Assembly: GCA_014649555.1 (NCBI GenBank)
Contig: BMTG01000007.1
Location: 248,001 to 312,000 of the forward strand
Length of the DNA: 64,000 nucleotides
From: Streptomyces globisporus
Lineage (GTDB): Bacteria; Actinomycetota; Actinomycetes; Streptomycetales; Streptomycetaceae
Reading direction: 5' to 3'
Below are positions 11,374 through 27,797 of the stretch, in pieces (within the stretch, counting starts at the first letter, position 1; every line of letters begins with the position of its first letter). Below the pieces are notes generated by a model that ran no database searches, was not told where the DNA came from, and saw only the letters and a program-made list of their open reading frames with translations. A program made the translations under genes and the position numbers.

Positions 11374-12654
11374 GTGGCGACCACGGTCTCCGACCGCCCC
11401 GGATACGGGCAACTGCTGCGCACCCCCGGTGCGTGGACCTTCCTCCTCCCCGGCTTCGCCGCACGGCAGCCCTTCGCGATGCTCACCATCGGCATCGTCC
11501 TCCTCGTGCAGCACACGACCGGCTCGTTCGGCAGCGCGGGCGCCGTCGCGGCGGTCTCCGGCGTCTCCATGGCGCTGTTCGCCCCGCAGAGCGGCAAACT
11601 CGCCGACCGGTTCGGCCAGCGTGCCGTCCTGGTGCCCGGGGTCCTGCTCCACGCCGTCTCCGTGAGCGCCCTGACCGCAATGGCGCTGGCGGACGCGCCC
11701 CTGTGGGCGCTGTTCGCCGCCGCTGTGCCGACCGGTGCGTCGATCCCGCAGATCGGCCCCATGGTGCGGGCCCGCTGGGCGGCGATGCTGGGGGCGACCC
11801 CCGACCGGCCCGCCTCCCCGCTGATGTCCACCGCTGCCGCGTTCGAGTCGGTGACGGACGAGTTCACGTTCGTCCTGGGCCCGGTGATCGCCACCGCGCT
11901 GTGCACCGGCGTGCACCCGGCGGCCGGACTGATCACGGAAGCCGCCCTGACCCTGGTCGGCGGCCTCCTCTTCGCCGCGCAGCGCGCCACCCAGCCCGCA
12001 CCTCGTGCCAAGGCCACCGCGGCCGAACCGCACGCCTCTGCGCTCTCCATTCCTGGCGTGCGCGTCCTGGCCGTCACCTTCCTGGGCATCGGCGCGGTCT
12101 TCGGCGGAATGCAGGTCTCGCTGACCGCGTTCTCCGAGGAGATCGGCCACCCCGGGGTCAACGGGGTCCTCTACGGGATCTTCGCGGCGGGCAACATGCT
12201 GGCGGGCATCGCCTGCGGCGCCATCGCCTGGAAGAGCAGCCCGCGCCGCCGGCTGATCGTCGGGTACGTGGCGCTGACCCTGACCGCGTCCGGCCTGTGG
12301 GCCGTGCACTCGGTGCCCCTGCTCGCCGGGCTCGGCCTGCTGGTCGGCCTCTGCATCGCCCCGGCCCTGATCAGCGGTTACACCCTGGTCGAGGCGCTGG
12401 TACCCGCCACCGCCCGCACCGAGGCCTTCACCTGGCTGACGGGCGCGGTGGCACTCGGACAGGCGGCGGCCGTGACCGTGGCGGGGCGACTCGCCGACGC
12501 CCACGGCGCGAGCACCGGATTCCTGGTCCCCCTGGCCGGAACCGTCCTGGCCCTGATGACCCTGCTCGCCCTGCGCTCCCGGCTGACTCCGAGGTCCCAG
12601 GGCCGCACGGTGGCACGTGGGATCGGTCACCGCGAGCCGGTCACGGTGGACTGA
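11374..12654 (+). CDS. MFS transporter (12-helix exporter type)
   Basis: 426 aa from a GTG with AAGG nearby. Twelve hydrophobic segments in two halves of six. The cytoplasmic loop between helices 2 and 3 reads SGKLADRFGQRA, the classic MFS motif A region. There is no periplasmic binding domain and no fused regulator, so a drug or metabolite exporter is most likely; the substrate is unknown. It stands alone behind a long leader, followed by the CIRCE-controlled fmdB gene on the same strand 66 bases later. Confidence 0.85.
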   Translation: MATTVSDRPGYGQLLRTPGAWTFLLPGFAARQPFAMLTIGIVLLVQHTTGSFGSAGAVAAVSGVSMALFAPQSGKLADRFGQRAVLVPGVLLHAVSVSALTAMALADAPLWALFAAAVPTGASIPQIGPMVRARWAAMLGATPDRPASPLMSTAAAFESVTDEFTFVLGPVIATALCTGVHPAAGLITEAALTLVGGLLFAAQRATQPAPRAKATAAEPHASALSIPGVRVLAVTFLGIGAVFGGMQVSLTAFSEEIGHPGVNGVLYGIFAAGNMLAGIACGAIAWKSSPRRRLIVGYVALTLTASGLWAVHSVPLLAGLGLLVGLCIAPALISGYTLVEALVPATARTEAFTWLTGAVALGQAAAVTVAGRLADAHGASTGFLVPLAGTVLALMTLLALRSRLTPRSQGRTVARGIGHREPVTVD

Positions 12655-12684
12655 TCCGACGGAATACGTCAGTATGGAGCGTCG

Positions 12685-12711
12685 TTAGCACTCACTGAGT
12701 GAGAGTGCCAG
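12685..12711 (+). promoter_or_regulatory. CIRCE element (HrcA operator)
   Basis: TTAGCACTC, nine bases, GAGTGCCAG. The left arm and the 9-base spacer match the CIRCE consensus exactly and the right arm differs at two outer positions; GAGTGCCA arms are usual in Streptomyces. It ends nine bases before the GTG of the fmdB gene and overlaps the ribosome-binding region, so HrcA binding should block this gene's expression until heat shock. Confidence 0.85.
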
Positions 12712-12720
12712 GAGGAGCAA

Positions 12721-13062
12721 GTGCCGACCTATCAGTACCAGTGCACCGAGTGCGGCGAGGGCCTCGAGGCGGTGCAGAAGTTCACCGATGATGCCCTGAC
12801 CGTGTGCCCGAGCTGCGACGGACGCCTCAAGAAGGTGTTCTCCGCGGTCGGCATCGTCTTCAAGGGTTCCGGCTTCTACCGGAACGACAGCCGCGGCTCC
12901 TCGTCGAGCAGCACGCCGGCGTCCACGGCCTCGAAGTCGTCCGACTCGGGTTCGTCCTCGTCGTCGACGGGCTCGGACACGAAGTCGAGCGCCTCGTCGT
13001 CCGCCTCCTCCTCGTCGTCGGCCCCCGCGTCGGCCTCGTCGAGCGGTACGTCGGCCGCCTGA
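12721..13062 (+). CDS. FmdB-family zinc-ribbon protein, Ruc-like
   Basis: 113 aa, GTG start with a strong AGGAGGAG. The first 60 residues are an FmdB zinc ribbon with Cys at 8, 11, 29 and 32 (CTEC and CPSC), then KKVFSAVGIVFKGSGFYRND. The remaining half is almost pure Ser/Ala/Thr and should be disordered. A zinc ribbon with a disordered tail, under CIRCE control, matches Rv0991c (Ruc) of Mycobacterium tuberculosis, described as a redox-regulated chaperone in the HrcA regulon. The assignment to that role is by analogy. A strong terminator follows, so it is a one-gene unit. Confidence 0.88.
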   Translation: MPTYQYQCTECGEGLEAVQKFTDDALTVCPSCDGRLKKVFSAVGIVFKGSGFYRNDSRGSSSSSTPASTASKSSDSGSSSSSTGSDTKSSASSSASSSSSAPASASSSGTSAA

Positions 13063-13092
13063 GCCACGTACGCACGCACCACCCGCCTTTTC

Positions 13093-13134
13093 ACCGGACC
13101 CCGCCGAGACTTCTCGGCGGGGTCCGGTCGTTTC
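13093..13134 (+). terminator. Terminator after fmdB
   Basis: A perfect 16-bp stem (13093-13108 with 13113-13128) with a four-base loop, followed by a short T-containing stretch. Confidence 0.85.
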
Positions 13135-13168
13135 CCCCGCGCGGCACCCCTGCGGATACGGTGACCGC

Positions 13169-14053
13169 ATGGTGAACGCACATACGGAAACGAACTCCGG
13201 TACGGGTACGGCGGGGGCCGAGGGGTCCGCGGAGATCGGTGTCATCGGCGGCTCGGGCTTCTACTCCTTCCTGGAGGACGTCACCGAGGTCGCCGTGGAC
13301 ACCCCCTACGGCAAGCCGAGCGACTCGGTCTTCCTCGGCGAGCTCGGCGGCCGCCGGGTGGCCTTCCTGCCCCGCCACGGACGCGGCCACCACCTGCCGC
13401 CGCACCGCATCAACTACCGGGCCAACCTGTGGGCGCTGCGCTCCGTCGGGGTCCGGCAGGTGCTCGGGCCGTGCGCGGTGGGCGGGCTGCGGCCGGAGTT
13501 CGGGCCGGGCACCCTGCTCGTCCCCGACCAGCTGGTGGACCGCACGAAGACCCGCGTGCAGACCTACTACGACGGTGAGACCCGGGCCGACGGCACCGTG
13601 CCGAACGTCGTCCACCTGGGCTTCGCCGACCCGTACTGCCCCGAGGGCCGCAAGGCGGCGCTCACGGCGGCCCGCGGCCGGGACTGGGAGCCGGTGGACG
13701 GCGGCACCCTGGTGGTGGTCGAGGGCCCCCGGTTCTCGACCCGCGCGGAGTCGCGCTGGCACGCGGCGATGGGCTGGTCCGTCGTGGGCATGACGGGGCA
13801 CCCCGAGGCGGTCCTCGCCCGGGAACTGGGGCTCTGCTACACCACGATGACCCTGGTGACCGACCTGGACGCGGGGGCCGAGGCCGGCGAGGGCGTCTCG
13901 CACGAGGAGGTGCTCCAGGTGTTCGCGGCCAATGTGGACCGGCTGCGCTCGGTGCTGTTCGACGCGGTGGCGGGGCTGCCGAAGAGCGAGAGCCGCAACT
14001 GCACGTGCGCCCACGCGCTGGACGGGATCGACACGGGGATCACGCTGCCGTAG
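13169..14053 (+). CDS. mtnP: S-methyl-5'-thioadenosine phosphorylase
   Basis: 294 aa. It splits methylthioadenosine with phosphate into adenine and methylthioribose-1-phosphate (methionine salvage). After a Gly/Thr-rich leader of about 20 residues, the phosphate loop IGVIGGSGFYS appears, then PRHGRGHHLPPHRINYRANLWAL split across the active site, EGPRFSTRAESR, and the base/ribose-binding VGMTGHPEAVLARELGLCY. The C-terminal SRNCTCAHALDG is typical of actinobacterial members. It is flanked by terminators on both sides, so is monocistronic. Confidence 0.93.
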   Translation: MVNAHTETNSGTGTAGAEGSAEIGVIGGSGFYSFLEDVTEVAVDTPYGKPSDSVFLGELGGRRVAFLPRHGRGHHLPPHRINYRANLWALRSVGVRQVLGPCAVGGLRPEFGPGTLLVPDQLVDRTKTRVQTYYDGETRADGTVPNVVHLGFADPYCPEGRKAALTAARGRDWEPVDGGTLVVVEGPRFSTRAESRWHAAMGWSVVGMTGHPEAVLARELGLCYTTMTLVTDLDAGAEAGEGVSHEEVLQVFAANVDRLRSVLFDAVAGLPKSESRNCTCAHALDGIDTGITLP

Positions 14054-27413: not shown

Positions 27414-27797
27414 GCGTGCTCCCTTGCTGAGTAGGTCGCGACACCCTTTCGGGTGCCCTGCATCCGATGGAAACAACGACTGGAATCCGGACAGAATTCC
27501 CATGCGGCCCATTCATTTTCGTGATCATGCAGTACCCTGTTCCGCTTCGACCGCCGGGCACCGCATCCGGATCCCATCGGACGCGCAGGTCAGAGCCGGT
27601 GCGGAGGGGGTTCCGGCCCCTGGTCGGCCCCCTTGCCGACTCTCCGGCCGGGTACCCGGAATCGGCGCGTCCACCCGAAGCGCCCTGCTCCCGCCCGGAA
27701 CTCCCCGCCCCCACCCCGAGAGACGGCTGCGGCGGCGTTCGGGTTGCTCAGGTGCGTCCGCGACGGGAAGAGCCGGTCAGGCCCCGACACGTACGGG
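27414..27797 (-). promoter_or_regulatory. hrdD upstream region with ECF-type promoter
   Basis: On the minus strand GGAAC (27543-27539), 17 bases, CG (27521-27520) followed by AAAA lies about 107 bases before hrdD. hrdD of S. coelicolor is reported to have a promoter dependent on the ECF factor sigma-E, which this resembles. A short CACCC/GGGTG hairpin lies at about 27443-27456. In 27580-27797 nothing else is seen. Confidence 0.5.

Follow-up and report, generated by a model that had tools for sequence, protein, structure and literature searches.

A CIRCE-like site over a predicted SigR-type promoter at the Streptomyces orthologue of ruc

The locus and its protein

The window analysed here is a stretch of 64,000 nt of Streptomyces globisporus DNA. 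It contains a short gene for an FmdB-family protein, preceded by a dyad of the CIRCE type and a second set of promoter-like boxes, and followed by a hairpin. The features of this locus are listed below in their order along the window, each with the basis of its assignment in brackets.

12661..12665, + strand: GGAAT, predicted −35 box of a SigR-type promoter (GGAAT-N18-GTT match, consensus, conservation)
12684..12686, + strand: GTT, predicted −10 box, its TT being the first two CIRCE bases (motif match, conservation)
12685..12711, + strand: CIRCE, predicted HrcA operator (sequence, rarity, conservation)
12710..12715, + strand: AGGAGG, likely ribosome-binding site, two bases common with CIRCE (sequence)
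12721..13062, + strand: fmdB/ruc orthologue, 113 aa, GTG start (PF09723, TIGR02605, orthologue search)
12721..12888, + strand: zinc-ribbon part, residues 1–56, with Cys 8, 11, 29 and 32 (profile matches, alignment)
12889..13059, + strand: Ser-rich tail, residues 57–113, probably disordered (composition)
13093..13128, + strand: strong hairpin 3′ of the gene, possible transcript end (16-pair stem, folding)

The 113-aa protein scores above the cut-offs of both FmdB profiles, PF09723 (55.6 bits, cut-off 34.4) and TIGR02605 (71.4 bits, cut-off 31.3). Its CxxC-CxxC cysteines (residues 8, 11, 29 and 32) are invariant among 14 aligned orthologues from the class, and the description of the product as an FmdB zinc-ribbon protein, given in an earlier note on this DNA, is borne out. 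The C-terminal tail of 57 residues contains 32 serines, no cysteine and none of the residues V, I, L, M, F, W or Y; judged by this composition only, it is probably disordered. Tails of 80 Streptomycetaceae orthologues show the same character, with a serine content of 40–73% (median 59%) and never a cysteine.

A comparable architecture is found in the redox chaperone Ruc (Rv0991c) of M. tuberculosis, which combines a zinc ribbon with Cys 8, 11, 29 and 32 and a hydrophilic tail (PMC7448276); the same cysteine numbers appear in the names of the Ruc mutant primers (PMC7448276). The resemblance to Ruc pointed out earlier is therefore upheld, as the four cysteine positions agree and a Ser-rich tail is present. 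With its four-cysteine N-terminal zinc ribbon at the Ruc positions and its variable hydrophilic tail, the 113-aa protein is, on sequence grounds, the Streptomyces orthologue of M. tuberculosis ruc (Rv0991c), and oxidation-dependent chaperone activity is predicted for it. It differs from Ruc in the very high serine content of the tail and in its genomic setting: downstream of the Streptomyces gene come the hairpin and a gene for MTA phosphorylase, while an operon with rv0990c is reported for rv0991c (PMC8557902). A single orthologue was found in each of 148 of the 158 class genomes and none in the other 10 (E 1e-6). No match to Hsp33 was obtained in this genome; Hsp33 and Ruc are described as anticorrelated in certain lineages (PMC7448276). 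Besides these cellular copies, 31 viral-contig loci (L064–L094, IMG/VR) encode relatives that are 33–51% identical in their best segment.

The neighbouring genes are largely retained in 80 selected Streptomycetaceae loci: within 1.5 kb, 73 of these carry a downstream gene for MTA phosphorylase and 75 an upstream MFS gene. The hairpin separating fmdB from the MTA phosphorylase gene has a perfect 16-pair stem (13093–13128; −38.7 kcal/mol for 13085–13145, z −4.70) and may end the transcript. A terminator scan did not call it, and it is not followed by a T run.

The putative operator and promoter boxes

The dyad at 12685–12711 reads TTAGCACTCACTGAGTGAGAGTGCCAG and has the form TTAGCACTC-N9-GAGTGCCAG. 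Exact CIRCE spacing and one perfect arm had been claimed for it, and both are found: the left arm is perfect, the spacer measures 9 nt, and the right arm has two mismatches to GAGTGCTAA. The reported overlap with the ribosome site is likewise present, with 12710–12711, the last two CIRCE bases, forming the first two of the AGGAGG ahead of the GTG at 12721; 9 nt lie between the end of CIRCE and this start codon. No other stretch of the window matches CIRCE with up to 3 mismatches, and none of 100 dinucleotide shuffles of the window contained any match at this threshold. The genome as a whole (8.2 Mb; 8,246,570 bases on 58 contigs) holds four such sites, including the one at fmdB, and a backwards-pattern control gave none. 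The other three lie at groE genes: one upstream of GroES-GroEL (C1; 1 mismatch, accompanied by a second site with 4 mismatches) and two upstream of another GroEL (C18; 2 and 3 mismatches). The genome also encodes HrcA (340.1 bits, cut-off 197.2), whose gene carries a CIRCE-like site with 4 mismatches. Both constituents of an HrcA-CIRCE regulon are thus found, a CIRCE dyad at the promoter and hrcA in the genome. A chance origin of the dyad is ruled out by the window shuffles, the genome-wide backwards control and the base shuffles of orthologue upstream regions given below; it is a genuine CIRCE-like site upstream of an FmdB-family gene. Within the Streptomycetaceae, the 9-nt spacer (12694–12702) is conserved too, mostly as AYTGAGTGA, and together with the arm it forms a short palindrome, CTCAYTGAG.

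A second element shares bases with the dyad. GGAAT (12661–12665) is separated by 18 nt from GTT (12684–12686), and the TT of the latter are the first two bases of CIRCE. This arrangement fits the SigR consensus GGAAT-N18-19-GTT (PMC9205884) and likewise the M. tuberculosis SigH consensus GGAAYR-N17-GTT (PMC4803200). A gene for a sigma factor of the SigR/SigH family is present in the genome, above its cut-off, and has a GGAAT-N18-GTT of its own, some 280 nt ahead of the stretch that matched; consensus boxes at the promoter and a sigma factor of the appropriate family are therefore both at hand. The SigR-type promoter was missed in the earlier note, and it makes thiol stress a predicted signal beside heat. 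By itself the motif is unspecific, as GGAAT-N17/18-GTT occurs 109 times in the genome, compared with 18 times for the backwards control. A TTGACA/TATAAT consensus promoter was not found in 12500–13300.

The window contains two further matches to GGAAT-N18-GTT. One of them (12106–12131) falls within the MFS gene, probably by chance. The other, at 27475–27500 on the minus strand, is a second predicted SigR promoter; about 60 nt downstream of it begins a sigma-70 gene (start 27413, minus strand) that we take to be hrdD. A paper on the SigR regulon of S. coelicolor names hrdD among the known targets; no mention of an fmdB-type gene was found in its main-text passages (PMC9205884).

Conservation in the genus, the family and the class

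Operator and promoter boxes are conserved as one unit in the genus. A search of 61 same-genus genomes for the composite GGAAT-N16..20-GTTNGCACTC-N9-GAGTGC gave a single match in each of 56, and none for the backwards control; 18 nt lie between GGAAT and GTT in 55 cases and 19 nt in one. Three of the five genomes lacking it show no orthologue, and two (G022 and G027) keep CIRCE with a changed GGAAT. Restricted to genomes with evidence of the gene, either through an orthologue or through the composite itself, the figure is 56 of 58. The family was sampled through 80 named loci, which are the best 80 of 563 confirmed ones and hence biased to close relatives; they come from Streptomyces, Kitasatospora, Actinacidiphila and Mangrovactinospora, the nearest being Streptomyces loci with up to 98% identity. 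All 18 arm letters of CIRCE are invariant in 80/80 of these selected loci and the neighbouring columns vary. GGAA[TC]-N18/19-GTT adjoins CIRCE in 76 of them, and the other four (L315, L321, L322 and L328) read GGAAAT. In the Streptomycetaceae, conservation extends to several bases in the spacer that separates the two promoter boxes (CAnnATnGA). A putative leader ORF just 5′ of CIRCE (ATG-GAN-CGT-CGT-TAG) was discounted because it precedes the predicted transcription start and its ATG is variable at the third base in 11/80 loci.

For the class, 350 nt upstream of all 148 orthologues (less at contig ends) were scanned for CIRCE with up to 4 mismatches. A site was found at 116 of the 148, compared with 2 of 2,960 base shuffles. 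Conservation of the dyad upstream of orthologues, the lack of which the earlier note had named as grounds for refutation, is thus seen both here and in the 80 selected loci. Its view that CIRCE on a non-groEL gene is unusual does not stand for fmdB, at which the site is common in the class. The CIRCE-bearing orthologues belong to 32 of 37 families (none in f5, f25, f32, f36 and f39), and 32 orthologues have no CIRCE upstream. In f5, f25 and f36, the site is missing from all 5, 11 and 5 orthologues examined, respectively. The absence is specific to fmdB in f36, and fairly so in f25, because other CIRCE sites remain in these genomes: 4–5 per genome in f36 (backwards control 0–1) and 2–4 in f25 (control 0–2). 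The same is not claimed for f5 (1–3 sites per genome, control 1–2) and f32 (4, control 4), where there is no clear excess over the control. Genomes of f5 and f25 are small (1.0–2.2 Mb). Across the class, hrcA is above its cut-off in 151/158 genomes and the SigR/SigH family in 150/158. Outside the class, CIRCE was found at 5 of 60 sampled orthologues (taken from 119 genomes with a match, mostly the better matches), which leaves a CIRCE at fmdB across the phylum unsupported.

The promoter boxes have a narrower distribution. A SigR-type promoter adjoins CIRCE at 23 of the 116 class sites (shuffle rate 73/34,800), namely in 12/12 orthologues of f1, 7/10 of f4, 3/10 of f18 and 1/11 of f17. SigR control across the class was rejected on this count. 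A looser pattern, GGAA-N18..20-GTT, is present in 6/10 sites of f18 and in 0/73 sites of the families other than f1, f4, f17 and f18. Outside f1, f4 and f18, a housekeeping-like −10, defined by a pattern chosen after viewing the sequences, adjoins CIRCE at 76 of 84 sites (shuffles 16%); the same pattern is found in 1/12 sites of f1, 0/10 of f4 and 10/10 of f18.

Proposed control and its alternatives

Taken together, these observations suggest that the ruc orthologue is probably read from the SigR-type promoter, with an HrcA operator lying over its −10 box and start, and that it encodes a chaperone activated by loss of zinc. In unstressed cells, HrcA bound at CIRCE would exclude RNA polymerase. 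Upon thiol-oxidising or heat stress, SigR would be released from its anti-sigma factor, while heat would lift HrcA from CIRCE; full induction would require both SigR release and HrcA relief. Transcription is predicted to start some 6–10 nt past GTT (12690–12697). The resulting protein would hold zinc by its four cysteines and release it on oxidation, and the oxidised form would bind unfolding proteins for transfer to DnaK, which is the behaviour reported for Ruc.

A precedent for such dual control exists in M. tuberculosis, where ruc is described as HrcA-repressed and SigH-induced, with an HrcA site overlapping a promoter of the SigH/SigR type as at the present locus (PMC7448276), and where its SigH-dependent expression on heat is 40.3-fold (PMC4803200). 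The proposal that fmdB belongs to the heat-shock network gains from the conserved CIRCE, the hrcA gene in the genome and a type of site common with groE. Compared with the HrcA-CIRCE regulon of Streptomyces (groES-groEL, groEL2 and hrcA), the operator is the same and found in the same genome, but here it lies over a SigR-type promoter and at a non-chaperonin gene; in the literature examined, only groE genes are named in the HrcA regulon of Streptomyces (PMC9739823). That source has HrcA control the Streptomyces groE genes positively, while the title of a 1998 paper cited there calls HrcA a repressor (PMC9739823). With the SigR regulon of S. coelicolor, the locus shares the GGAAT-N18-GTT boxes (PMC9205884) and differs in having a predicted repressor operator on top of the promoter.

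The regulation could be as proposed and the protein something other than a chaperone, for instance a zinc-ribbon regulator, as the name FmdB implies. The absence of a match to any solved structure (0 hits at E 0.1) and the variable, low-complexity tail leave room for this, and in the literature examined, M. tuberculosis Ruc is the only protein for which the activity is reported; we nevertheless consider it unlikely, given the cysteine positions shared with Ruc, the single orthologue found per class genome, the operator common with groE and the lack of an Hsp33 match in this genome. Another arrangement, in which HrcA is the sole controller acting on some other promoter and GGAAT-N18-GTT is incidental, is quite improbable. 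It would accord with the housekeeping-like −10 at CIRCE in most other families and with a SigR-type motif that is fairly common by itself, but in the genus this −10 is seen in only 1/12 and no TTGACA/TATAAT consensus is found in 12500–13300. Furthermore, the SigR-type motif is present in 12/12 genus orthologues found by protein, far above its shuffle rate, and the GGAAT and GTT columns are near-invariant in the 80 selected loci. There is very little to recommend SigR as sole controller in Streptomyces, with CIRCE as a relic or a site for another protein: the boxes do fit the SigR consensus and the role of HrcA here is a predicted one, but the arm letters stay fixed among varying columns, and G022 and G027 retain CIRCE alongside a changed GGAAT. 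Finally, the dyad touches the ribosome site and its arms can pair in part, but a function in RNA (as a hairpin or thermometer) instead of as a DNA repressor site is hardly credible. Arm positions 7–21 are unable to pair in 59/116 class sites and 3–25 in 51/116, while most of the remaining arm letters do not vary. Folding of the leader is no more stable than that of shuffles (z +0.58), and neither conserved pairing nor a stable hairpin is seen at the ribosome site. In addition, with a start 6–10 nt past GTT, the RNA would lack most of the left arm.

Already known are the Ruc family and the dual control of ruc in M. tuberculosis, as well as SigR and the CIRCE sites at Streptomyces groE genes. 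In a literature search of partial coverage, no paper was recognised as placing fmdB in the HrcA/SigR network of Streptomyces, and prior publication is possible. The present analysis adds the Streptomyces composite element, the occurrence of CIRCE at this gene across the class, and the exchange of one promoter type for another beneath it. Combined HrcA and SigR control would connect the heat-shock and thiol-stress networks of the main antibiotic-producing genus with a commonly annotated zinc-ribbon protein of the FmdB family. Streptomyces would also be a safe organism for work on a Ruc-type chaperone.

Because a housekeeping-like −10 adjoins CIRCE in most other families, the operator has most likely been kept while the promoter type changed among families. 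In a 20-row HrcA tree, f4 and f18, which we infer to be the mycobacterial side, group with f37 (98/97) and apart from the group holding f1; this is a tree of one gene with an unsettled bootstrap, in which f1 has no firm position inside its group. A wider reading, offered tentatively and held to be short of probable, is that ruc belongs to the core of the HrcA regulon throughout the class, with an operator fixed early and the promoter beneath it exchanged. A SigR/SigH-type promoter would then have replaced or joined the housekeeping-like −10 in two separated clades (f1, and f4 with f18), making heat control ancestral and thiol-stress control a trait gained more than once. We keep this reading tentative because f1 is unplaced in the tree and the loss of CIRCE is specific to fmdB only in f36 and, less clearly, in f25. 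The locus may offer a clean case of an immobile repressor operator under which the promoter type differs between families. A further variation on the operator is seen at locus L143 (family f27, genome G086), where CIRCE-like copies are repeated in tandem upstream of the fmdB orthologue.
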